From Chitinophaga pinensis (lineage in GTDB: Bacteria; Bacteroidota; Bacteroidia; NS11-12g; UBA955), in NCBI GenBank assembly GCA_945877575.1, contig CAMDUE010000007.1:1-64000 (forward strand): 64,000 bases of DNA, in the 5' to 3' direction. Within the stretch, counting starts at the first letter, position 1. Every line of letters begins with the position of its first letter. The notes under the pieces were generated by a model that worked only from the letters and a program-made list of their open reading frames with translations, ran no database searches and was not told the origin of the DNA. The position numbers were made by a program, and so were the translations under genes. This document shows positions 50,443 through 62,567 of the stretch, piece by piece.

Positions 50443-51756
50443 TTATTTCTTTCTAAAATAAATCATGATTGGAACCCCCGAAAACGGAAACGAATCACGG
50501 AGTTTATTTTCCAAAAATCGGCTGTAAGAATCATCAACATATTGAGGAAGGTTACAGAAAAATGCAAACGCAACCCTTTTGGAAGGCAGTTGAGTCACAA
50601 ATTTGATTTTTACAAATTTCCCTTTTTTGCTTGGCGGAGGATAATTTTCTATAATCGGTAAGATGAAATCATTGAGTTTATGCGTTGAAATTCTGGTACT
50701 CAATGAATCATAAACCTTTGTTATCATTTCAACAGCTTGAAAAATACGTTGCTTGGTCAATGCCGAAATATACAAAACCGGAACATCTACAAAAGGAGCA
50801 ATTCGTTGTTTAATATTTTCAGTGAAAGCCAAATGAGTATTTGTATCTTTTTCAATCAGATCCCATTTATTTACTAAAATCACGACTCCTTTTCCCAATC
50901 GATGGGCCATCCAGAATAGATTGAGATCTTGTGCTTCAAGTCCTTGTGTTGCATCCAAAACCAGAACCACAATATCAGCATTTTCCAATGCTCTCAACGA
51001 ACGCATGACCGAGTAAAACTCAATGTTTTCGTGGACTTTACTCTTCTTTCTAATTCCTGCGGTATCAATCAGGATCATTTCCTTACCAAAAGCGTTATAG
51101 TGGGTATCTATGCTGTCTCGGGTGGTACCTGCAATGTCAGTAACAATGTTTCTGTCTTTTCCAAGTAAAGCATTTATAATACTACTTTTTCCTACGTTTG
51201 GACGACCTACAATAGCAATTTTAGGAAGTGCAAGTTCATCTTCACTCGTAGAATCGGGTAATTCTTTTATATGTTCAGTTACAGCATCTAACAATTCACC
51301 AGTTCCAGAACCATTTGTAGCCGAAACTTCAAAAATATGCTCAAATCCCAAGGCATAAAAACTGGGTGCTTGTAATCTTAAACTCTCGTTATCTACCTTA
51401 TTCACGCAAAGCAACACGGGCTTTTTGTTTCGATGCAATAGTTGAGCAAAATCCTGGTCTAAAGGGTGAATATCTGATTGAACATCCACCATAAAAATAA
51501 GAACAGCGGCCTCTTCAATGGCAATATGTACTTGCTCTCTTATGGCATTTTCAAATAAATCTTCTGATTTTGGAACAAATCCACCGGTATCAATAACCGT
51601 AAATTCAACGCCATTCCAGTCGCTTCTGCCGTAATGACGATCACGGGTTACGCCACTAAAGTCATCAACGATGGCTTTCCGTTCACCCGTCAAACGATTG
51701 AACAAGGTGCTTTTTCCAACATTCGGACGACCAACAATGGCTACTATTCGATTCAT
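50443..51756 (-). CDS. der: Ribosome-associated GTPase Der (EngA)
   Basis: A 437-residue protein with two GTPase domains in tandem, which acts in 50S subunit assembly. The first has GRPNVGKSTLFN and DTGGF, the second GRPNVGKSSIIN, DTAGIRKKSK and NKWDLIEK. A C-terminal KH-like domain completes it (PSKRVAFAFFCNLP). A perfect -7 box lies 4 nt upstream of the ATG at 51756, so the der-rlmN transcript should be leaderless. Confidence 0.97.
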   Translation of the reverse strand: MNRIVAIVGRPNVGKSTLFNRLTGERKAIVDDFSGVTRDRHYGRSDWNGVEFTVIDTGGFVPKSEDLFENAIREQVHIAIEEAAVLIFMVDVQSDIHPLDQDFAQLLHRNKKPVLLCVNKVDNESLRLQAPSFYALGFEHIFEVSATNGSGTGELLDAVTEHIKELPDSTSEDELALPKIAIVGRPNVGKSSIINALLGKDRNIVTDIAGTTRDSIDTHYNAFGKEMILIDTAGIRKKSKVHENIEFYSVMRSLRALENADIVVLVLDATQGLEAQDLNLFWMAHRLGKGVVILVNKWDLIEKDTNTHLAFTENIKQRIAPFVDVPVLYISALTKQRIFQAVEMITKVYDSLSTRISTHKLNDFILPIIENYPPPSKKGKFVKIKFVTQLPSKRVAFAFFCNLPQYVDDSYSRFLENKLRDSFPFSGVPIMIYFRKK

Positions 51757-51760
51757 CCTG

Positions 51761-51768
51761 CAAAGATA
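51761..51768 (-). promoter_or_regulatory. -7 box TATCTTTG for der-rlmN
   Basis: A perfect TAnnTTTG box 4 nt before the der ATG (51754-51756). Confidence 0.65.
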
Positions 51769-51834
51769 CGATAGAAAATACCGATGTTATGCTAAGTGAA
51801 CATTTATTAGGGCATATGTTATAAAAGGGGATTG

Positions 51835-51851
51835 TTTAACTAGGTGTTAAA
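51835..51851. promoter_or_regulatory. Inverted repeat upstream of the sigma-54-like promoter
   Basis: TTTAAC (51835-51840) and GTTAAA (51846-51851) are perfect inverted repeats over a 5-bp centre. The site lies about 60-75 bp upstream of the -24 element, a suitable distance for a sigma-54 enhancer-binding activator. The sequence is A+T-rich, so chance is possible. Confidence 0.35.
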
Positions 51852-51885
51852 GCATTTCAGATAGTATTCAACAGAATAATTAAAT

Positions 51886-51893
51886 TAACTTTG
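51886..51893 (+). promoter_or_regulatory. -7 box TAACTTTG upstream of the wza-like gene
   Basis: A perfect TAnnTTTG box 152 nt before the ATG at 52046. Transcription from here would begin near 51900 and carry the whole structured leader. Confidence 0.5.
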
Positions 51894-51906
51894 TGTAATC
51901 TTTAAA

Positions 51907-51925
51907 TTGGCACGGAATATGCCAA
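51907..51925 (+). promoter_or_regulatory. Sigma-54-type -24/-12 promoter of the polysaccharide operon
   Basis: TTGGCACGGAATATGCCAA contains a perfect -24 core TGGCACG and the invariant GC of the -12 element with the exact GG-N10-GC spacing (GG at 51909-51910, GC at 51921-51922). The -12 side reads ATGCC instead of TTGCW. Predicted start is near 51934, giving a leader of about 110 nt. The same bases form an inverted repeat, TTGGCA-N7-TGCCAA, so an operator is the alternative reading. Confidence 0.6.
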
Positions 51926-51955
51926 CAAAGGAACAGTAACTTTCAAACTTTCATT

Positions 51956-51986
51956 TCTCAGTTCAAAAATTAACGTGTAACTGAGA
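51956..51986 (+). promoter_or_regulatory. Leader hairpin before the wza-like gene
   Basis: TCTCAGTT (51956-51963) pairs perfectly with AACTGAGA (51979-51986) over a 15-nt loop. Two G-U pairs could extend it. The stem is followed at once by a G-rich run containing GGCGGAGCCGT (51988-51998), which shares its first five bases with the enterobacterial ops element; no T run follows. It may act in the leader RNA of the operon. Confidence 0.45.
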
Positions 51987-52027
51987 GGGCGGAGCCGTAA
52001 AATTTTTACAAAACCATTGATTTTCCG

Positions 52028-52035
52028 TAAGTTTG
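52028..52035 (+). promoter_or_regulatory. -7 box TAAGTTTG close to the wza-like gene
   Basis: A perfect TAnnTTTG box 10 nt before the ATG at 52046. If used, it would bypass the structured leader. Confidence 0.5.
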
Positions 52036-52045
52036 ATTTGAATTC

Positions 52046-52807
52046 ATGATAAAAAAAGGTTTAGTAGTTTTAGTGGTATCTTATTTTTTGGCTTTTTGCG
52101 GAAGTTCTAAAGACCAAGTCTATTTCACTGGTTTAAAAGATAGTACCATAATTGACTCAGTTTATTGGAGGGAAGTCATTATTCACAAAGGTGATCAATT
52201 ATCCATTACCGTTGCTAGTTTAAACCCTGAGATGGATCAAATTGTTAATCAAGCCAATTCAGTATCCGGCCAGTCTGCGGGGGGTGAAACTCAATCTGGT
52301 TATTTTGTAACTGAAAAAGGCATTCTAAACTTGCCTCGTGTAGGAAACTTAAAAGTAGAGGGAATGTCTCATGCGCAGCTCATTGATACCCTACAAATAC
52401 TTTATTCCCAATATACTAAAAGTCCAATTGTCTCAGTCAGACTAATGAATTTCAGGGTCACCGTTTTGGGTGAAGTTATGCATCCTGGCCAGTTAACATT
52501 TTCAACTCCAAATATTGATATATATCAAGCTATCGGCAAGGCTGGCGATATCACTCCTTTCGGGAGAAGATCAGACGTATTACTAATCAGGCAAACAGAT
52601 TCTTCAAGATTGGTTCATAGAGTAAACCTCTCTGATCCAAAAGTAATTCGCAGCTCGGTTTTTCAATTGCAATCAGGAGATTTAATCTATGTAGAGGCCA
52701 ATCAAACCAAGAAGAATTCAAGCAGTTTAACATTGCAATTATTCCCTGTAATCACTAGCGGAGTTACGTTAGTTGTTGCATTAATGGGTATTGTTGGAAG
52801 ATTTTAA
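52046..52807 (+). CDS. Polysaccharide export outer-membrane lipoprotein (Wza-like)
   Basis: A 253-residue lipoprotein (MIKKGLVVLVVSYFLAFC, Cys18). A Poly_export domain (WREVIIHKGDQLSITVASLNPE) is followed by SLBB-type repeats (VTVLGEVMHPGQLTFSTPN, QAIGKAGDITPFG) and a C-terminal hydrophobic helix (LQLFPVITSGVTLVVALMG) that could cross the outer membrane. Wza-type proteins form the outer-membrane channel for capsule or exopolysaccharide. The Wzc-like gene follows after 15 bp, as expected for a coupled secretion machine. Confidence 0.92.
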   Translation: MIKKGLVVLVVSYFLAFCGSSKDQVYFTGLKDSTIIDSVYWREVIIHKGDQLSITVASLNPEMDQIVNQANSVSGQSAGGETQSGYFVTEKGILNLPRVGNLKVEGMSHAQLIDTLQILYSQYTKSPIVSVRLMNFRVTVLGEVMHPGQLTFSTPNIDIYQAIGKAGDITPFGRRSDVLLIRQTDSSRLVHRVNLSDPKVIRSSVFQLQSGDLIYVEANQTKKNSSSLTLQLFPVITSGVTLVVALMGIVGRF

Positions 52808-52822
52808 ATAGTAAGTTAAATC

Positions 52823-55246
52823 ATGGAACCAAATCCACTAAATCCTGGACATGTTTACAAACAAACAGAATCCAAATTAGGGACAAGTAGCGCACTAAAT
52901 CCTTATGATATTGTTAGAAAGGTAATTTTACCCTTTTGGCCCATTTATGCGATTTCTTTGGTTATTGCCTTTTTTGCTGCTCGCGTCTATATTCGTTATC
53001 AGATTCCAGTTTTTCAAGTGTTTGGAAAGGTATTGCTTAAGGAAGATGGGGGTGCAGAAGGTGCCATATTAAAAGAGTTTGACATTTTTGCTGCACAGAA
53101 ATCAGTTGACAATGAAATTGAAATAATCCGTTCCTCAGATATCACTGGTAAAGTAGCTCGCAACTTAAATACGTACATTTCAATTCGTCAAGAAGGCAAG
53201 GTTAGAACAAATATTATGCCTTTCCATTTTGCCATCAATTTTGAAGCACTTGATGAAGACTCAATAATGTCTGCTAACAATTTAGAACTTGTATTCAACT
53301 CCGACAGAAAGTCGTTCACAATTTCCGGTACGAAATACCCTCTAAAGGATCAGATTATTACTATCAATGGAACATCGTTTCAATTGACAATAGACCAGTT
53401 GCTTGCATCTCAAGTCAATTTCAACACCCCTTATTATTTATCTATTAGAGATATAAAAGCTGAAACTGCTAGAATTTCAAATGCTGTAACTGCGGCTCAA
53501 GTGGGCAAAAAAACTACCATTATTGCAATTACATATAGCGATCAAAATGTCGAAAATGCACAAAAGATATTGAATGAAGTTGTTGATGTCTACACAAATT
53601 CTTCTGTGGCAGATAAGCGACGTTCGGCTCAATTCTCGCTAGATTTCATAGATCAAAGACTTCGACTTATCAATGGAGAATTGGATAGCGTTGAAAGGAA
53701 TATTGAACAATATAAGTCAGCCAATGGAATTTATGATATCAGCTCTCAAGCGAATTTGTACTTATCCTCTGTCAAAGAAACTGATCAAAAGATAGCGGAA
53801 TTGGATTTGCAATTATCTGTATTAGCGGATATTGAAAACTATATTAATCAGAAACAAAACACAACTGGAACCGTTCCGTCTGTTATGGGTTTCAATGAAC
53901 CCTTATTAAGTGCCTTATTAAGTAAATTATACGATTTAGAAACTGATTTAAGCAAGAGAAAAAAGATTTCGGGGTATCAAGACGAAACCTATGTTACTCT
54001 AGAAGAGGAAATAATAAAAACCAAGCGCAGCATTAAGGAGAATATTCGAAACATTAGATCTAACTTAAATATTGCCAAGATAAATTACACACAACAATCC
54101 GGCGAAAAAAATGGATTGCTAAGTGCAATTCCGGCAAAGGAGCGGACTTTGGTTGACATTTCTCGGCAGCAATCAATAAAAAATGAGATTTACACTTTTT
54201 TGTTAGAAAAACGCGAAGAGTCAGCAATATCGTTTGCAGCAACGGTTTCAGATATAAGAATCATTGAGAAAGCTTTCGGTGGATCACAAATTGCCCCTAA
54301 ACCTTCAATGAATTATGTATTTGCTTTCAGTATCAGCTTCATAATTCCATTTTTATTCGTTTACTGGTGGGTTCTATTAAATCCAAAAATCAAATTCCGC
54401 GAGGACATAGAATCTTTAACCGAGATTCCCATCATTGGTGAAATCATGTATGACAATCAAAAGCGAAGCATTATTGTGGGCATCAAGGATAGAGGAATTA
54501 TCGCAGAATCTGTTAGAAGTATTCGGACAAAGATATCTAATTTTCGATGGCAGAATAAGAAATCAGTACATACTATTTTAGTTTCTTCATCTGTTCCCGG
54601 GGAAGGTAAAACTTTTGTGAGTATCAATTTAGGAATCAGTTTCAGTTTATCGGGTCAAAAAGTGGTTTTGATTGGTGCAGATATGCGAAAGCCAACGCTG
54701 CATAAACCATTTAATTTACAAGCAAGAAATGGTTTAAGTGCTTATTTATCTGGGGCAAATGATTTAGATTCCATTATATATCCAACAGAATATGATGGAC
54801 TTTCGATCATCCCGTCAGGCGTTATTCCACCGAATCCAACAGAATTATTTGAATCAGATCAGATGGAAGTTTTTTTCATAGAATTAAAGAAACGATTTGA
54901 TATTATTTTAATAGATACTCCTCCATTAGGGCTTGTCTCTGATGCTGAATTGATTGCAAAGTTTGTAGATATGAGCATATTTGTGGTTCGACAAAATAAA
55001 ACACATAAAGATGCCATTGTTGAGGTTATTGAAAAAGCTAGAAAAACAGGATTGTTTCCCAATATTTCTTTGATTTTTAATGGTTTAAAACCAACGGGAA
55101 TTGGACGCTATGCGTATTACGGTTATGGTGGATATGGTTACAGTGGTTATGGTTATGGAGGATATAACTACGGATATGGTTATTATGGAAGTGGGGTGAA
55201 GAAAACGGGATATGGGTATTTTTTAAAGAAGATTTTTAAGAAGTGA
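52823..55246 (+). CDS. Polysaccharide co-polymerase / tyrosine autokinase (Wzc-like)
   Basis: An 807-residue inner-membrane protein. A Wzz-type chain-length domain (~30-510) has membrane segments near 34-53 and 495-515 and a periplasmic coiled coil. The cytoplasmic BY-kinase has Walker A VPGEGKT at 591-597, Walker A' ADMRKP (Asp620) and Walker B ILIDTPP (Asp698). The tail from 761 onward is Gly/Tyr-rich with 15 tyrosines, the expected autophosphorylation cluster. It should control polymer length and export together with the Wza-like lipoprotein. Confidence 0.94.
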   Translation: MEPNPLNPGHVYKQTESKLGTSSALNPYDIVRKVILPFWPIYAISLVIAFFAARVYIRYQIPVFQVFGKVLLKEDGGAEGAILKEFDIFAAQKSVDNEIEIIRSSDITGKVARNLNTYISIRQEGKVRTNIMPFHFAINFEALDEDSIMSANNLELVFNSDRKSFTISGTKYPLKDQIITINGTSFQLTIDQLLASQVNFNTPYYLSIRDIKAETARISNAVTAAQVGKKTTIIAITYSDQNVENAQKILNEVVDVYTNSSVADKRRSAQFSLDFIDQRLRLINGELDSVERNIEQYKSANGIYDISSQANLYLSSVKETDQKIAELDLQLSVLADIENYINQKQNTTGTVPSVMGFNEPLLSALLSKLYDLETDLSKRKKISGYQDETYVTLEEEIIKTKRSIKENIRNIRSNLNIAKINYTQQSGEKNGLLSAIPAKERTLVDISRQQSIKNEIYTFLLEKREESAISFAATVSDIRIIEKAFGGSQIAPKPSMNYVFAFSISFIIPFLFVYWWVLLNPKIKFREDIESLTEIPIIGEIMYDNQKRSIIVGIKDRGIIAESVRSIRTKISNFRWQNKKSVHTILVSSSVPGEGKTFVSINLGISFSLSGQKVVLIGADMRKPTLHKPFNLQARNGLSAYLSGANDLDSIIYPTEYDGLSIIPSGVIPPNPTELFESDQMEVFFIELKKRFDIILIDTPPLGLVSDAELIAKFVDMSIFVVRQNKTHKDAIVEVIEKARKTGLFPNISLIFNGLKPTGIGRYAYYGYGGYGYSGYGYGGYNYGYGYYGSGVKKTGYGYFLKKIFKK

Positions 55247-55247
55247 T

Positions 55248-56333
55248 TTGAATACAAATGAATTAAAATTAGCCATTATTGGTGGCGATTTTCCGCCTTC
55301 TAACTCTCCTAGGGCGATTAGAATTTTTAATTTGGTTTCTGGTTTAGCCCCTTATTTTGAGAGGATTAATGTTTATTTGCCAAATGCACCAATAAATAAT
55401 TTGAATGCCGAAAAATCTAATGTGAAATTTTATTCATTTGGGCGAAATATAAAATTTACGTTTCGTGGCACGTTTGGTAGAATATTACAAAGAATTTTTA
55501 ATTTGTTATTCGACTATCCAGATATCAATTTTTTCTTTTGGTTAAAGAATTATCGTCATGTTTTAGATTCTGATGTAATACTTACCATTGGCGTTCCCCA
55601 TTCAATTCATTGGGGAATAAATAAATTGCTTAGAACATGTAATAAAAAGATTTATTGGATTGCTGAATCAAGCGATCCTTTTTTCACAAAAGGCATGGAT
55701 ATTTTTCCTAAGCCATTTTATTTTCGATTTCTAGAGCGTTCCTTTTTAAATAAGGTTGATAAAGTAATCGTTCCATTTGAGGGTGCCATTGCTGCATATC
55801 CTAGATTTTCCAAATCAAAATTCAGTGTAATTCCACAAGGTTTTGACAGCGCATATATTTGCAGTTTTCGAAACGAAAATGTCAATAATTCTATCTTTAC
55901 GTTTGGGTATGCAGGAACTTTATACAAATTTGGTAGAAATCCTTCAGAATTTTTAAAAAAGGCAATAAATTCTAAATTTAATTTTAAATTTTATTTAATA
56001 GTAAATAATTTAGATTTAATACCTTCTGAATGTTTAAGTGATGAACGATTTATTATTCAGAATTTAATGCCTCGAGAAGATGTTTATCGATTGCTAGCAG
56101 GTATGGATTGTATTTTGAATTTTGAAAATTATTCAAAAACGCAGAGCCCTTCTAAGATCATTGAATATTCATTCTTGGGTCGGCCTATATTCACAGTTAA
56201 TTTGGAAATTGATGGTGATGTTTTTATTGATGAACTACTATCAGGCAATAGAGAGCCCATTCAAATCAATAGTTCTGAATACGATAATAAACAAATAATC
56301 GATAAATATATTTCTCTATTTAGAATGGAATGA
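55248..56333 (+). CDS. Glycosyltransferase, GT-B fold (GT4-like)
   Basis: A 361-residue protein. The N-terminal half opens with LAIIGGDFPPSNSPRAIRIF, typical of GT4-like enzymes. The C-terminal half has FGYAGTLYKFGR and QSPSKIIEYSFLGRPIF, matching the nucleotide-sugar-binding region with its conserved Glu. It probably adds one sugar to the lipid-linked repeat unit; donor and acceptor are unknown. It starts with TTG at 55248, one base after the Wzc-like stop codon; the nearest ATG is out of frame. The base composition is visibly more A+T-rich than in the genes before it. It overlaps the polymerase gene by 4 bp. Confidence 0.82.
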   Translation: MNTNELKLAIIGGDFPPSNSPRAIRIFNLVSGLAPYFERINVYLPNAPINNLNAEKSNVKFYSFGRNIKFTFRGTFGRILQRIFNLLFDYPDINFFFWLKNYRHVLDSDVILTIGVPHSIHWGINKLLRTCNKKIYWIAESSDPFFTKGMDIFPKPFYFRFLERSFLNKVDKVIVPFEGAIAAYPRFSKSKFSVIPQGFDSAYICSFRNENVNNSIFTFGYAGTLYKFGRNPSEFLKKAINSKFNFKFYLIVNNLDLIPSECLSDERFIIQNLMPREDVYRLLAGMDCILNFENYSKTQSPSKIIEYSFLGRPIFTVNLEIDGDVFIDELLSGNREPIQINSSEYDNKQIIDKYISLFRME

Positions 56334-57583
56334 GTGTTAACTCATTATTGCTTTTATTAATTTGGCCTTTCGCCTCATTTTTGTCCTTATTTCGGGGTAA
56401 AATAGATATTGAATTTCGAAATGTTTTTTGGTTTTTATGTGTTTTTTTTGGTTTTGGATTTGTGTTGAAAGGAGACGTAGGGGATAGTTACAGATATGCT
56501 GAGGAATTAAAAGAAATAAACTTTAAAATAAAATTAGGGTTTAGTTTTATTGATTTATTAAGTCTTATTTATACTCAATATTCTGACCCATTTAGTCCAA
56601 TAGTAACTTTTATAATTGCCTATTTTACCCCTGACTACCGCTTTTTGTTTGGAATTTATGCATTGTTTTTTGGTTATTTTTATTCAAGTAATATTTTTAT
56701 TATATTGAATAATTTGAATAAAGATATATCTACAAAATTAAAATATTTAATATTTGCTTATTTGTTACTTATTCTCCCAATATGGGAAATAAATGGTGTT
56801 AGAATGTGGACGGGGTTTCACGCTGTTTTTTATGGTCTTTTGAAATCTAAAAATAGTCTATTGGACAGGGCATACATTCTTTTTGTTCCACCTTTTTTTC
56901 ATTCAAGTTTTTTCATATTTTCTGCAATTTATTTGATTGCTGTTTTGGGGCAGAAATATATATCTTTAAAACTTATAAGGATTGTATTTTTGTTGTCTAG
57001 TTTTGTGGTGTACACTGGATTTAGATTTACTTTTGAGCAAACAGCTTTTATTGGGGATTTAGGATCAGGTGGAAGTGAACTTCTGGAGGGTAAAACATCT
57101 GCTTACAATAATGAATATGATCTTGAATTAGAACAATCTAGTTGGTTTTTAAATTGGAGTGCCGAATTCTCGAGACAGATTAATTTAATTTTAGCTGTAG
57201 GCTTATTTATTTTCATACGAACTGATAAATACAATATTTTTGGTTCAATTAGTTCAAGAGAATTATTTACTATTGGTTCAATTGTTTCTTTGATTGCTCT
57301 TCATCCAAGTATCTCATCTGGACGGTTTTTGGTTTGGATTACGTTTATTGGTTCATATATTTTCATTCAAGAATATGAAAGTCGAAAGGGTTTATTTTAT
57401 TATTTATTAGAAATTGCTATAGTCATTTTCATCTTGTTTATTTTAGTAATAAAAATTCGTTTTGGATTTGAATTTTTTAATTATGGGTTTTTTTTAGGCA
57501 ATTTATTTTCTATTTATTTTCTTGGAAATGATATTTCTATGTTAGACTTTTATTATGCGTTATTCGGAAAGTATAGTTCTTAA
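56330..57583 (+). CDS. Polysaccharide polymerase-like membrane protein (EpsG/Wzy type)
   Basis: A 417-residue protein with about ten membrane segments. GDVGDSYRYAEELKEI near the N-terminus, INGVRMWTGFHAVFYGL and FHSSFFIFSAIY resemble EpsG-family polymerases, which join repeat units in the periplasm. The family call rests on topology, a few motifs and position between a glycosyltransferase and AsnB, because such proteins diverge strongly. It is extremely A+T-rich, which suggests horizontal acquisition of this part of the locus. Its ATG overlaps the preceding stop (ATGA). Confidence 0.75.
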   Translation: MSVNSLLLLLIWPFASFLSLFRGKIDIEFRNVFWFLCVFFGFGFVLKGDVGDSYRYAEELKEINFKIKLGFSFIDLLSLIYTQYSDPFSPIVTFIIAYFTPDYRFLFGIYALFFGYFYSSNIFIILNNLNKDISTKLKYLIFAYLLLILPIWEINGVRMWTGFHAVFYGLLKSKNSLLDRAYILFVPPFFHSSFFIFSAIYLIAVLGQKYISLKLIRIVFLLSSFVVYTGFRFTFEQTAFIGDLGSGGSELLEGKTSAYNNEYDLELEQSSWFLNWSAEFSRQINLILAVGLFIFIRTDKYNIFGSISSRELFTIGSIVSLIALHPSISSGRFLVWITFIGSYIFIQEYESRKGLFYYLLEIAIVIFILFILVIKIRFGFEFFNYGFFLGNLFSIYFLGNDISMLDFYYALFGKYSS

Positions 57584-57589
57584 GCAAAC

Positions 57590-59365
57590 ATGTGTGGACT
57601 AGGATTTAGTATAGTAAGTGAGGCATTAAGTAGACCGCGTGAATCACTTACTGATAGAATTGAACACCGTGGACCAGATTTTAATGGTTCAAAGAAGTTC
57701 TGCTATAGTTTGAATGAGACTGGCAAACAATTTTCATTAAGCTTTAGTCACCGAAGGCTTGCTATTACCGATTTTTCGAGTTTAGCTAATCAGCCATTAA
57801 TTGTTGATGATCAATTTATTATCATCTTTAATGGTGCAATATTTAATTACAAAGAGTTAAGAGGTATTCTACAATCTCTTGGAGCCAACTTCGTTACTGA
57901 TTCTGATACTGAGGTTATAGTTCAAGGATATAAGTTTTATGGCTTAGATGTTTTTAAGAAATTACAAGGAATGTGGTCTATTGTAATTTGGGATAAGCTT
58001 TGTTCTTCGGTTTATTTCAGCCGTGATCCATTTGGTATCAAACCGCTATTTTACTACCAAAAAAATCATGAGTTTTACTGCTTTTCAGAGGTAAAGCAGT
58101 TACTAGATATTGTAAATTTGAGTGTAAATGATGATTCATTAACTTACTTTTTGAATTATGGTGTTACCAATTTTGGTAATGAAACATTATTCAATGGGAT
58201 ATTTGAGTTTGAATCTGGTTTTGTCTATGAGTTTGATTTAATAACTGAAAAATTAGAAAAAAGAGAGAGTGTAATCTGTGAGGCAAATTTAATTGGCTTA
58301 GATTATAGTAAAAGTTTAAATAATAATTTGTCATCAGCTTTTAATGCTGATGTTCCATATTCGGTTTCTGTCAGTGGTGGATTGGATTCAAGTATACTTG
58401 CTTATTTAGGAAAGCAGGCAACAAACAAACCTCACAAGAATACTGTATATACTTCAGTTTCGTCTGATTCATCTAATTCTGAAGAAATCTGGGCTGAACA
58501 AATTACAAACGAGTTAGGTTTTAATCTAGTGAAAGTGAGAACAGATTTTTTTGATTTTAAGAATCATCTTCCTCAAATTATTTATCACCTTGAAACTCCT
58601 ACTCAATCGATGAGTGCATATTTTAACTATTTTGTTTATCAATCCATGAAAAAAGACGGTGTGAAAATGTCTTTTTGTGGGCAAGGTGCTGATGAACTAT
58701 TTGGTGGATATAGTCAATTTCAATATGCTCGATTTTTTAATTTTTTACCAAGATTCATTGGGAACCCACTAAGTCGAATTTTAGATGTTTTGCTTAGTTT
58801 TTCTTGGCGTCATACTCATCATCCTATTTTAAAATATAAGTCTCATAAAAGAATTGAACATTTTTTTAAAAAAGTAAAGAAACCATTTTTCAATTTAAAT
58901 GATGTGATTGATTACTTTTTATTGAAAGATCCTTTACCAAGGTATTTGCATTGGGAGGATAGATTATCTATGGCACATTCGATTGAATCAAGAGTGCCTT
59001 TTTTACAGCAAAGTATTTATTTGTTAGCGAAGGATGTACCTTGGAGACTAAGATATAAACAAGGTTTTACGAAGTATATTTTGAGGAAAACATATAAAGA
59101 CAAAATTTCTGATAAAATACTTTTTAGAAAGGATAAAAAGGGTTTTGCAAATTCAGAACAGTTTTGGATTTTAACAAAATACTCAGCAGACTTTCGAGTG
59201 TTATTGTTGGAAAACTTGGAATATCTAAGTGATTATATCCATATTGAATCAGCTATAAAAGGATACGATCAAATGGTTGTAAATCAACATTATGATCCTA
59301 TTTATTGGAGAATTATCCAATTGGGTCTATGGCATCGAACCTTTATTAATAAATTAGTTTCTTAA
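57590..59365 (+). CDS. asnB: Asparagine synthase (glutamine-hydrolysing) family amidotransferase
   Basis: A 591-residue two-domain enzyme. Cys2 (after removal of Met) is the class II glutamine amidotransferase nucleophile in MCGLGFSI, and IEHRGPDFNG follows. The synthetase domain has the PPi-loop SGGLDSS at 262-268 and the ATP region GQGADELFGGYSQF. In polysaccharide clusters, AsnB homologues often amidate sugar acids rather than make free asparagine; that role here is inferred from position. A uronic acid source (ugd) lies in the neighbouring block. Confidence 0.9.
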   Translation: MCGLGFSIVSEALSRPRESLTDRIEHRGPDFNGSKKFCYSLNETGKQFSLSFSHRRLAITDFSSLANQPLIVDDQFIIIFNGAIFNYKELRGILQSLGANFVTDSDTEVIVQGYKFYGLDVFKKLQGMWSIVIWDKLCSSVYFSRDPFGIKPLFYYQKNHEFYCFSEVKQLLDIVNLSVNDDSLTYFLNYGVTNFGNETLFNGIFEFESGFVYEFDLITEKLEKRESVICEANLIGLDYSKSLNNNLSSAFNADVPYSVSVSGGLDSSILAYLGKQATNKPHKNTVYTSVSSDSSNSEEIWAEQITNELGFNLVKVRTDFFDFKNHLPQIIYHLETPTQSMSAYFNYFVYQSMKKDGVKMSFCGQGADELFGGYSQFQYARFFNFLPRFIGNPLSRILDVLLSFSWRHTHHPILKYKSHKRIEHFFKKVKKPFFNLNDVIDYFLLKDPLPRYLHWEDRLSMAHSIESRVPFLQQSIYLLAKDVPWRLRYKQGFTKYILRKTYKDKISDKILFRKDKKGFANSEQFWILTKYSADFRVLLLENLEYLSDYIHIESAIKGYDQMVVNQHYDPIYWRIIQLGLWHRTFINKLVS

Positions 59366-59367
59366 TT

Positions 59368-60462
59368 TTGAAAAACAATCTGATAACATTTGAATCTGAT
59401 GACTGGGGCAGTTTAAGATTGGAAAATCTTTCAACCGTTGAAAGTCTGAAAAATGCTAATATCCCTACCCATACTTGCGGGGCAGGCTTCTTTAATGAAT
59501 TTGATACATTAGAGTCTTCTGAAGATATTAAATTACTGTCAGATGTATTAATTCAAAATTCCAATTTACACTGTACCCCTAAATTTACTTTTTTACAACT
59601 AACGTCTAATCCTGACTTTGATAAAATTAAAGAATCTAATTTTACTCAGTATTTTAATCACTCTGTTGAAGTAGATTATCTGAAATATGGAGATGAAAAT
59701 TATTTATACAATTTAAAAGAATTAATAAGTAAAGATATTTTTTCTCTTGAATTTCATGGAAGGGAACATCTAAATGTTCCTGTTTGGATGCGATACTTGC
59801 AGTTGAATGACAGCAATACACGTACTGCTTTTGATTTGAAGTATTGGGGTTATGATAATATCAATCAATATTCTGTTTTTTATAATTCAGCGTATGATGT
59901 AGAATCGAAAAAGGATATTTCAATGTATGTTGATATTTTAATTGATGGAATACATAAATTCAAGGAATTGTTTGGAATTCAACCAATCTATTTTGTTCCT
60001 CCAACAGGAGGAATGAATTCCGCTTACTTGAAACCATTATCCGATAATGGAATAAAATTGGTTCATTCTGCAAGAATACATATAGATAGTTTGGGTGAAG
60101 GTAAAAAGAAGAAGCTCTTCAGAATTCCTGGAACTAAAAATAAATTTGGTCAGAGATATATAAAGAGGAATTGCTTTTTTGAACCAGCAGACAAATCAAA
60201 GGATTGGGTTAAATCTTGCTTGTGTGAAATTGAGCATGCGTTTAAATACAATCAACCAGCTGTAATTTCAACACACAGGGTCAATTATGTTGGAAGAATC
60301 CGTAAAGATAATAGACAAAACGGTTTAGATAAACTGTCAGACTTATTAAGTCAAATAAATGAGCGTTGGCCCGAAGTTAATTATCTTCATACTAGAGATT
60401 TGTTTAATTATTACGAAAATAGGCGTTGGGATTTAAAACAATTAATAGGAGTAATTAAGTAA
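59368..60462 (+). CDS. Divergent NodB-like (CE4) polysaccharide deacetylase family protein, copy 1
   Basis: A 364-residue protein without signal peptide or membrane segment. It keeps the layout of carbohydrate esterase family 4: the acidic motif SDDWG (Asp11-Asp12), the metal-binding pair His130 and His134 in FHGREH, a FVPPTGG motif in place of RxPxG (~210), and STHRVNYVGR near residue 300. It should remove an acetyl group from a sugar, but the family is distant enough that this is inference. It begins with TTG at 59368, forced by homology since the SDDWG motif lies only 9 residues in. The next gene is its paralogue, 6 bp away. Confidence 0.7.
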   Translation: MKNNLITFESDDWGSLRLENLSTVESLKNANIPTHTCGAGFFNEFDTLESSEDIKLLSDVLIQNSNLHCTPKFTFLQLTSNPDFDKIKESNFTQYFNHSVEVDYLKYGDENYLYNLKELISKDIFSLEFHGREHLNVPVWMRYLQLNDSNTRTAFDLKYWGYDNINQYSVFYNSAYDVESKKDISMYVDILIDGIHKFKELFGIQPIYFVPPTGGMNSAYLKPLSDNGIKLVHSARIHIDSLGEGKKKKLFRIPGTKNKFGQRYIKRNCFFEPADKSKDWVKSCLCEIEHAFKYNQPAVISTHRVNYVGRIRKDNRQNGLDKLSDLLSQINERWPEVNYLHTRDLFNYYENRRWDLKQLIGVIK

Positions 60463-60468
60463 AGTAAT

Positions 60469-61599
60469 TTGAATAGGCCGTTAATAGTTTTTCAGTCAGA
60501 TGATTGGGGTACACAACGAATTCCTTCAGGAATAGAATCTAAAATCCAGTTTGATTATCTAAATGAATTTCTTCAATTTGATACTTTGGAAGATAAAGAT
60601 GATCTAGATAATTTAAAGTGGGAAGTTGAGAATATAGCTACTCAAATTTGTAAGCCAGTAAATTTTACTCTAAATATTGTTTCAGGAAATCCCAATTTTT
60701 CGAAAATAAGGGCGAACGATTTCCAAAAGTACTTTGTACAGGATTTAGATCAGAGTTATTCATATTACGGATTTAATCAAGCCCAAATTAAAGTACAGTG
60801 GTTTCATATTTCAAATTCTGCTTCTTTTGATCTTCAATTCCATAGTAGGGAACATGTAAACTCACAATTATGGTTAAAAGCACTTCAAAAAAGAGATCAA
60901 ATGACAGAAGCTGCATTTGATTTGGGTTTCTGGGGGCTTTCAACTAATTATACTAGGACTAGTCATAAAAGTTTTATGGCTACTTGGGATGAAAAGCCAA
61001 TGGAGACGGATGAATTAAATTTTAAAGAAGGCATTAAACTCTTCAAGGATTATTTTAACATCAAACCAATTTCATTTGTACCTAATAATTATATTTTCCC
61101 AATTGGAAATATAAAATTTGTTGAGAAAAATGAAATAAAATCAATTCAAGGTAGAGAATATTTAATCCAGCCTCAAAAATCTAAATTTTTTAGATTTCGG
61201 AGGAAGGTTCCCAGGAAAATGGGCAATATCGAAATCGGGTCAAATAGTTTGATTTCTATTGTAAGGAATGTTCAATTTGAGCCATCGAAAGATTTATTTT
61301 CAAACAAACATAATGAGTCATTTACTCCTCAAATAGATTTAGCAATGAATCAAATTAACTTGGCAATAATGAAAGGATTACCTGCTGTTATTGATACTCA
61401 CAGGGTAAATTATGTTGGTGGTAGAAATGAACAAAATAGAGACTACGGACTGCAACAATTGAGAAAACTAGTGGAAATGAACAGAAGTACATTAATGAGG
61501 CTTTCGAATCCAATTGGGTTGCTCCATTGGGTAAGAATATTGACGAATTTGAAAATCAAGTTTCACAATATACTGGTACGAAATATGCGGCAGCCGTAA
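60469..61599 (+). CDS. Divergent NodB-like (CE4) protein, copy 2, with an aberrant C-terminus
   Basis: A 376-residue paralogue of the preceding protein: SDDWG (Asp11-Asp12), FHSREH with His125 and His129, AFDLGFWG, FVPNN, and DTHRVNYVGG near residue 308. It starts with TTG at 60469. Similarity to copy 1 stops around residue 335 (GLQQLRKLV); the last ~40 residues are read out of frame through the N-terminal codons of the downstream aminotransferase gene. Its true C-terminus (copy 1 ends with a WPEVNYLHTRDLF-type segment) appears to be lost, which suggests a deletion fusing the two genes. Function of the shortened protein is uncertain. Confidence 0.65.
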   Translation: MNRPLIVFQSDDWGTQRIPSGIESKIQFDYLNEFLQFDTLEDKDDLDNLKWEVENIATQICKPVNFTLNIVSGNPNFSKIRANDFQKYFVQDLDQSYSYYGFNQAQIKVQWFHISNSASFDLQFHSREHVNSQLWLKALQKRDQMTEAAFDLGFWGLSTNYTRTSHKSFMATWDEKPMETDELNFKEGIKLFKDYFNIKPISFVPNNYIFPIGNIKFVEKNEIKSIQGREYLIQPQKSKFFRFRRKVPRKMGNIEIGSNSLISIVRNVQFEPSKDLFSNKHNESFTPQIDLAMNQINLAIMKGLPAVIDTHRVNYVGGRNEQNRDYGLQQLRKLVEMNRSTLMRLSNPIGLLHWVRILTNLKIKFHNILVRNMRQP

Positions 61600-62567
61600 C
61601 TACTGGAACAGCGGCCCTGCAGTTAGCACTTAGATTGGTTGGAGTTTCAAGAGGTGATTATGTTATCTGCCAAAGTTTTACTTTTGTAGCATCTGCGAAT
61701 GCTATCCTATATCAAGGTGCGCAGCCTATTTTTGTTGATTCTGAAACAAAAACTTGGGGCATGGATCCAGAACTTTTAGAAAAAGCAATTCTGCATTGTA
61801 TGTCCCTCGAAAAGAAACCAAAGGCCATAGTGCCGGTTCACTTGTATGGAATGCCGGTGAATATGGTGGAAATTATGCGAATTGCTAAGAAATACAGAAT
61901 TCCTGTAATTGAAGATGCTGCTGAGGCTTTGGGTTCATCAATTAACGGAAAGATGTGTGGTTCATTTGGAGATTTTGGCGTCATTAGTTTCAATGGAAAC
62001 AAAATAATTACCACGTCTGGTGGTGGAATGTTGTTATCTGACAATCCCAAGAAGATAGAGAAGGCTAAATTTTTAGCGACTCAAGCTAGAGAGAACTTTC
62101 CTCACTATCAGCATGAAGAGATGGGTTATAATTTCAGAATGAGTAATGTTTTGGCTGGAATTGGAAGAGGCCAAATGGAGGTATTGAACGAACGAATTGA
62201 GAGTAGAAGAAGTAATTTCAACTACTACAAGGAAAAGCTCGGTCAAATACCTGGAATTTCGTTTTTAAAAGAATTAGAAGGAAGTATTAGTAACAGGTGG
62301 TTAACCATAATTTTGTTAGACCCAAAACTCACCGGGGGCATAGGACGAGAAGACCTGAGATTTGCATTGGCTGATGAGAATATAGAATCTCGTCCACTTT
62401 GGAAACCAATGCACATGCAACCATTATTTGAGAGTGCGCCATATTTTGGCAAGGGCATAGCAATGAAATTATTTAAACACGGTTTGTGTTTACCAAGCGG
62501 CAGTAATCTAACCAATGAAGAATTGGATAGGGTTATTGACGTAATTATTAATGTTATTAATAATTAA
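61527..62567 (+). CDS. DegT/DnrJ/EryC1/StrS-family aminotransferase, N-terminus damaged
   Basis: A PLP-dependent sugar aminotransferase, 346 residues from TTG 61527. GTAALQLAL, VPVHLYGM, EDAAEALGS and the Schiff-base Lys159 in FNGNKIITTSGGG are present. The reading frame stays open upstream to 61440, and 61470-61526 encodes SGNEQKYINEAF, then SNWVAP, the normal N-terminal region of this family. No ATG, GTG or TTG lies there, so the native start seems to be gone. Starting at 61527 removes conserved residues; an ATT at 61458 is another possibility. The gene overlaps the CE4 copy 2 frame by 73 bp, which is abnormal. Confidence 0.8.
   Translation: MGKNIDEFENQVSQYTGTKYAAAVTTGTAALQLALRLVGVSRGDYVICQSFTFVASANAILYQGAQPIFVDSETKTWGMDPELLEKAILHCMSLEKKPKAIVPVHLYGMPVNMVEIMRIAKKYRIPVIEDAAEALGSSINGKMCGSFGDFGVISFNGNKIITTSGGGMLLSDNPKKIEKAKFLATQARENFPHYQHEEMGYNFRMSNVLAGIGRGQMEVLNERIESRRSNFNYYKEKLGQIPGISFLKELEGSISNRWLTIILLDPKLTGGIGREDLRFALADENIESRPLWKPMHMQPLFESAPYFGKGIAMKLFKHGLCLPSGSNLTNEELDRVIDVIINVINN

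Follow-up and report, generated by a model that had tools for sequence, protein, structure and literature searches.

The leader of the polysaccharide operon in the window, the 64-kb stretch of DNA analysed here, carries a short element that is conserved across the Bacteroidota and is found in leaders, near polysaccharide and upxY genes. Its sequence makes it rather probable that the element is an ops/JUMPstart-like antitermination loading site for a NusG paralogue of the UpxY type, and we infer a dependence on UpxY. The loading-site reading moves the special control of the operon from initiation to elongation. A previous sequence-only reading had placed that control at a sigma-54 promoter; the wider idea of a special layer of control over polymer production is better supported, though for elongation instead of initiation. 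Features are collected in Table 1; papers given by PMC number are cited from excerpts.

Table 1. Features of the operon, its leader and its divergent neighbour, in window coordinates.
Feature	Position	Strand	Remark
der/engA GTPase, divergent neighbour	50443..51756	-	adjoins wza in G012 too
Inverted repeat TTTAAC-N5-GTTAAA	51835..51851	.	no evidence of function
-7 box TAACTTTG, sigma-A type	51886..51893	+	start expected near 51898
Sigma-54-like site TTGGCACGGAATATGCCAA, also palindrome	51907..51925	+	-24 perfect, -12 = ATGC; doubtful promoter
Leader hairpin, arms TCTCAGTT (51956-51963) and AACTGAGA (51979-51986)	51956..51986	+	
Conserved leader element	51972..52000	+	model R1 match, 23.5 bits
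ops-like 12-mer GGCGGAGCCGTA	51988..51999	+	predicted pause at T51998 (position 11)
GCGGAGC, putative non-template DNA mini-hairpin	51989..51995	+	within 12-mer
Second -7-like box TAAGTTTG	52028..52035	+	sequence only
wza-like polysaccharide export protein	52046..52807	+	first operon gene
wzc-like chain-length/tyrosine autokinase	52823..55246	+	
Rest of polysaccharide cluster	55248..62567	+	

A conserved element in the operon leader

The wza-like gene, whose product has a Poly_export domain, is separated from der by a spacer of 289 bases; main ORFs of at least 100 codons, taken from a hand-made list, cover all but 2.4% of the window. Beyond wzc the cluster encodes a protein with a weak glycosyltransferase match, a membrane protein without a Pfam match, an Asn-synthase-like protein, two proteins without a Pfam match and a DegT/DnrJ aminotransferase. 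The adjacent proteins encoded at 59368-60462 and 60469-61599 share an N-terminal FxSDDWG motif, have no Pfam match and look like duplicates of one family.

The conserved part of the leader (51956-51999) lies about 60 bases downstream of the sigma-54-like site and consists of a hairpin followed directly by the 12-mer. R1, a sequence-only model built from 21 copies, matched the window with an E value of 2.4e-6, the next place reaching 6.8 bits; the window score is not independent, because the window copy was among the seeds. This copy is deviant at three points: TGTAAC takes the place of TGTGAC, position 5 is G, and position 12 is A. Of the consensus pause bases of ops, GG at 1-2 and TG at 11-12, it has GG and T11, with A12 in place of G12. 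The arrangement of a hairpin with GGGCGRAGC after it (GTGGCGAAGC in G006) is common to the window and four other genomes, G012, G006, G016 and G028. The other wza cluster of the genome also contains a weak copy (C2:180506-180529, 13 bits, E 0.0033 in 40 kb), which immediately precedes an HTH gene, and G006 and G010 have one there too.

R1 gave 68 matches in 50 of the 79 genomes of the order (E<=0.05) and matched 71 genomes in a phylum-wide sample of 392 (E<=0.01). The pattern TGTGACTGARGNGGCGAAGC, searched over a genome collection of 84,980 species, was found in at least 120 stretches, against about 4 expected by calculation. Among 80 listed rows, three bore the names of other phyla (L352, L376, L397), three had no phylum (L340, L342, L368) and the rest bore Bacteroidota names. 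When the regions upstream of all 81 Wza places in the 79 genomes of the order were scanned, 15 contained the element (17 rows matched, of which two were discarded as chance), as did 8 of the 30 UpxY loci scanned, where it preceded upxY. Rfam covariance models, including RF01707, did not match the element, which is absent from Rfam 15, and its consensus was not described in the excerpted literature that was searched, though Saba et al. 2024, the most relevant paper, fell outside that search. Two of the contigs are named as Acidobacteriota (L397, a Terriglobia MAG, and L352, an Acidobacteria MAG); the element on L397 has UpxY and Wza nearby as well, which suggests transfer or misbinning. Most genomes of genus g13 (G064-G074, G025, G033) have UpxY and Wza, with an R1 match only in G065 and G025; another code may operate in the leaders of this genus.

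Neighbouring genes were sought with profiles built for UpxY, Wza and the HTH protein. In the order set (n=68), UpxY was found near 18 elements, Wza near 20, HTH near 31 and any of the three near 47. The phylum set comprised 29 loci, none of them a seed (30 were fetched and the genome of the window was excluded), with UpxY at 14, Wza at 10, HTH at 4 and any at 17. Every neighbour match in the two sets lay on the strand of the element (114/114). Within 2.5 kb of the 120 listed pattern matches the corresponding counts were 60, 38, 32 and 81, leaving 39 with none of the three, and 167 neighbours lay on the same strand and 1 on the opposite one. A upxY match lay 18-95 bases downstream of the element in 13 of the 68 order matches, and the order element-upxY-wza recurs in family f2. 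Counted per genome, presence of the element and presence of UpxY showed no significant association (38/6/26/9, p 0.25), and two contexts, with a recombinase (L215) and a DUF2806 gene (L216) downstream, do not fit a UpxY reading. In two clusters (L212, L228) the element precedes APS kinase genes, a hint that sulphated polysaccharides may be controlled in this way too.

Position 11 of the 12-mer, a base outside the searched pattern, is T in 114 of the 120 listed copies, and at position 12 there are 76 copies with G and 33 with A; the base count on model matches kept 94 of 97. The 5' flank pairs with the TGTGACTGA arm in excess of a distant segment (mean z 1.06, SEM 0.14, n=117, versus 0.07, SEM 0.10), and the model-match set gave a similar value (1.02, SEM 0.16, n=89); these z-scores treat copies as independent, uncorrected for relatedness. 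Many copies have weak stems, with p<=0.05 reached in only 18/89 and 28/117. The test kept 89 of the 97 model matches, dropping those below 19 bits, with no recognisable core or with identical flanks, and 117 of the 120 pattern copies, dropping identical flanks or short upstreams. Folding of the whole leader RNA was not special (z -1.24), and a search of 51700-52300 for an intrinsic-terminator-like site found none.

The sigma-54-like site and the probable ordinary promoter

What the sequence-only reading had described at the site proved accurate. The 19 bases lie exactly where they were placed, with a perfect TGGCACG core (51908-51914) and exactly ten bases between GG (51909-10) and GC (51921-22); the wza-like gene starts downstream at 52046, and both the upstream inverted repeat and the two -7 boxes are present. 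TGGCACG occurs seven times in the window, against 3.1 expected, and the claim that no second copy is intergenic was borne out, the remaining six falling within ORFs. That reading had overlooked the perfect palindrome which the site forms, TTGGCA-N7-TGCCAA.

The machinery which it had proposed to look for is also there: the genome carries rpoN and, among eight matches to the sigma-54 activator domain, two full-length and strong ones, an NtrC-type response regulator adjoining a PorP/SprF gene and an activator without a receiver domain adjoining lptE. Genome-wide, TGGCACG-N5-TG has 14 copies, 8 inside ORFs and 6 judged intergenic, namely the window site and sites before lon, a Wzx-like flippase, a TlpA-like oxidoreductase and two proteins without a family match. 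Two of these (L116, L117) were counted as intergenic though mechanical ORFs overlap them, a later ATG being taken as the start. All five other intergenic sites have TTG at -12 and none of the eight in-gene copies does; ATG, as in the window site, is found in 5 of the 8 in-gene copies. The five (L109, L111, L112, L116, L117) read TGGCACG-N4-TTG, with the -12 half ending TTG(A/T/G) and not TTGC. They are probably real sigma-54 sites of this organism, because targets such as lon and the thioredoxin-type gene are in keeping with Flavobacterium psychrophilum, where sigma-54 is described in excerpts of PMC9723704 as driving a regulon of envelope and stress genes including lon. In the region C2:165001-185000 (L314), rpoN (168192) and the second wza (177173) are less than 9 kb apart, and a short way past this pair come the HTH gene and the second, weak copy of the element.

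Whether the site is a genuine sigma-54 promoter, at which one of the two activators would drive a start near 51934, seems to us doubtful. The intact -24 half, the exact spacing and the presence of rpoN and activators speak for it, as does the association of sigma-54 with cell-surface genes in other bacteria, reported in excerpts of PMC3162934 and PMC12316311. A matrix built on the five other sites, and over-fitted for that number, gave the window site 9.5 bits, the highest score of any place in the window outside ORFs and a level that 9 out of 500 shuffled spacers attained. Against this, six places within ORFs scored higher, and each of the five member sites, when left out, exceeded the window site (11.5-26.1 bits); its ATGC at -12 is neither TTGC nor the TTG of the genome's own sites. 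A looser scan, TGGCACR-N5-TTGCW with at most two mismatches, gave 14 sites compared with 16.8 in shuffles, and hence no excess. The evidence against a chance origin of the match is thus mixed. Conservation also counts against a promoter. Wza was matched in 24 of the 57 genomes searched, that of the window included, and among those with the upstream region read only G012 shares the der neighbour (71% identity); the leader in this one syntenic relative lacks the sigma-54 site, its best candidate scoring 5.3 bits at another distance. None of 97 related elements had a match to the strict sigma-54 pattern upstream. As the conserved signal of the leader, sigma-54 is weak by genome-wide patterns, contexts, the five-site matrix and the 97 upstream regions alike. 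A sigma-54 promoter and a loading site could nevertheless coexist, because a sigma-54 transcript would include the loading site.

TAnnTTTG boxes, on the other hand, were found within 200 bases upstream of 39 of the 97 elements on the same strand, compared with 7 on the reverse strand and 11 in shuffles. Because of this strand-specific enrichment and the lack of strict sigma-54 patterns, the conserved element appears to tend to occur in leaders of ordinary sigma-A promoters, and the leader in the window is probably driven by an ordinary sigma factor. The expected start of TAACTTTG follows from the -12 to -5 placing of the box given in an excerpt of PMC9723704. A transcript from TAAGTTTG would start near 52040 and therefore miss the element. 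With the start near 51898, the palindrome would span roughly +10 to +28, where it might act as the operator of a dimeric repressor just past the sigma-A start or, since the predicted transcript forms a 5' hairpin there, as an mRNA structure. Its arms are perfect, but we think either role quite unlikely: the palindrome is not conserved in G012, the same spacer holds another 6-bp inverted repeat of equal size, and elsewhere in the genome a perfect copy occurs just once, within a gene, on which ground the palindrome was rejected as the operator of a regulon. With up to two mismatches the genome has 238 sites per strand versus 108 for the reversed pattern, which is not a fair control because the two patterns differ in composition.

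UpxY as the likely reader of the element

The genome encodes one UpxY-family protein (136 bits, cut-off 100). On the same NusG paralogue the RfaH model scored 64 bits against a cut-off of 144.5, so an RfaH partner is not supported. UpxY scored above the cut-off in 64 of the 79 genomes of the order. There is no upxY beside the element in the window, although in many relatives the two are adjacent; here the gene stands alone, between fabK/NMO-like and PIG-L genes with accA beyond. A housekeeping NusG is present as well, followed by two genes whose size would suit rplK and rplA.

In the mechanism we propose, RNA polymerase would start upstream of the element; the sigma-A promoter near 51898 is the likeliest place, and the sigma-54-like site a possible one. 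Once transcribed, the hairpin at 51956-51986 would form behind the polymerase and aid a pause at T51998. The stem ends at 51986, and there would thus be about 11 bases between it and the RNA 3' end, a spacing that is usual for pause hairpins. The paused bubble would expose the non-template GCGGAGC, which may fold into a DNA mini-hairpin with a GNA loop; the stand-alone UpxY would bind this mini-hairpin and stay on the polymerase, which could then traverse the ten-kilobase operon without terminating early. Saba et al. 2024 are reported to describe UpxY as recognising paused polymerase via non-template and upstream DNA, aided by nascent RNA hairpins, a mode that would fit the element closely. 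For contacts of UpxY with the upstream DNA duplex, an excerpt of PMC12691694 cites Saba et al. 2024.

Two other accounts of the element were weighed. It might be read, as RNA or DNA, by a protein other than UpxY, for example the abutting HTH/nucleotidyltransferase-like protein, whose gene often ends 30-70 bases before an element or starts 7-120 after one, lies near 31 of the 68 elements in the order and is preceded at 72 bases by the weak second copy in the present genome. We regard this as unlikely, since HTH genes accompany few copies phylum-wide (4/29, and 32/120 of those listed), UpxY is commoner there (14/29 and 60/120) and the resemblance to ops points to a NusG paralogue. Far less probable still, the element could be a scattered repeat, mobile or REP-like, with no more than a tolerance for leaders: some genomes do have several copies, up to 5 or 6, but most have one, flanks are unrelated beyond about 25 bases, and the 167-to-1 orientation with genes at the listed matches largely disfavours a repeat of this kind. 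The HTH protein itself has about 176 residues, is conserved, starts with MIETLISSKTRVKLLLKFF, lacks a Pfam match and occurs in 39 of the 79 genomes of the order; by eye it looks like a winged helix joined to a degenerate nucleotidyltransferase domain. Its gene abuts the element in many genomes (loci L205, L206, L210, L211, L212, L214, L217, L221, L227, L228 and L231, and C2:180602-181072 in the genome of the window).

Extending the UpxY reading, we put forward with evenly divided confidence that the Bacteroidota share one UpxY loading code: a hairpin with the 3' arm TGTGACTGA, then GGCG(A/G)AGCYRTG with a non-template GNA mini-hairpin, equivalent to ops minus the flipped T. It would be used here in trans by a stand-alone UpxY, as ops is by RfaH in E. 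coli, with the linked HTH/nucleotidyltransferase-like protein as a third, undescribed partner; two phyla would therefore have reached the same solution, with GNA and GNNA loops respectively. If this is true, the phylum-wide consensus would let UpxY-controlled polysaccharide operons be predicted in any Bacteroidota genome. It would also raise a structural question, namely whether the DNA mini-hairpin read by UpxY is of the GNA type, as against the GNNA one with a flipped T that RfaH reads.

Comparison with known systems

In rpoN, activators and a lon target, the sigma-54 system of this genome resembles that of F. psychrophilum, and the window site resembles its motif SM4 in the TGGCACG half and spacing (excerpts of PMC9723704). 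The -12 half departs both from the genome's own sites and from the consensus TGGCAC-N5-7-TTGCT quoted in PMC12316311.

A close counterpart of the element is ops/JUMPstart, the site of RfaH. Rfam finds JUMPstart (RF01707) before wza and rfbB of E. coli K-12, the rfbB alignment showing CUGG-loop-CCAG and then GGGCGGUAGCGUG; a search of E. coli with R1 did not find JUMPstart. Both elements sit in polysaccharide operon leaders, have an RNA hairpin ending just before GGCG and have AGC in common. In register, the Bacteroidota 12-mer GGCG(A/G)AGCYRTG matches ops positions 1-4 and 11, T11 being mostly followed by a purine; ops12 itself is GGCGGTAGCGTG, with the pause-inducing TG at positions 11-12, as stated in an excerpt of PMC5995543. 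The element has its own 3' arm, TGTGACTGA, without a match in Rfam. The ops hairpin pairs C3 with G8 around a loop of G4-A7, with T6 flipped out into RfaH (same source), whereas the putative hairpin of the element pairs C3 with G7 around a G-N-A loop and, because that loop is one base shorter than the GNNA of ops, offers no flippable base like T6. By analogy a NusG-paralogue partner is likely, UpxY in place of RfaH.

The core of the element, d(GCGNAGC), belongs with the GNA/GNNA mini-hairpins, of which d(GCGAAGC) is described as ultra-stable, melting at 78 C (excerpt of PMC4686876); by inference, ops would be a GNNA member of this class. Known members are free oligonucleotides, in contrast to the hairpin predicted here within a transcription bubble. 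With standard DNA energies GGCGAAGCTGTG gave 0 kcal/mol and no hairpin, and the window form gave -1.7.

Among UpxY systems, the 5' leaders of Bacteroides fragilis involve the same protein family and the same kind of operon, and likewise place a signal before upxY and the polysaccharide genes (PMC7819879, PMC7593976, in part). There UpxY prevents early termination in the leaders (PMC7819879), and in the capsule switching of gut Bacteroides every UpxY is said to activate the operon that encodes it (PMC7593976). These systems differ from ours in that upxY lies in, and acts on, its own operon, whereas the stand-alone upxY here would act in trans, and in that a single consensus is common across the phylum.
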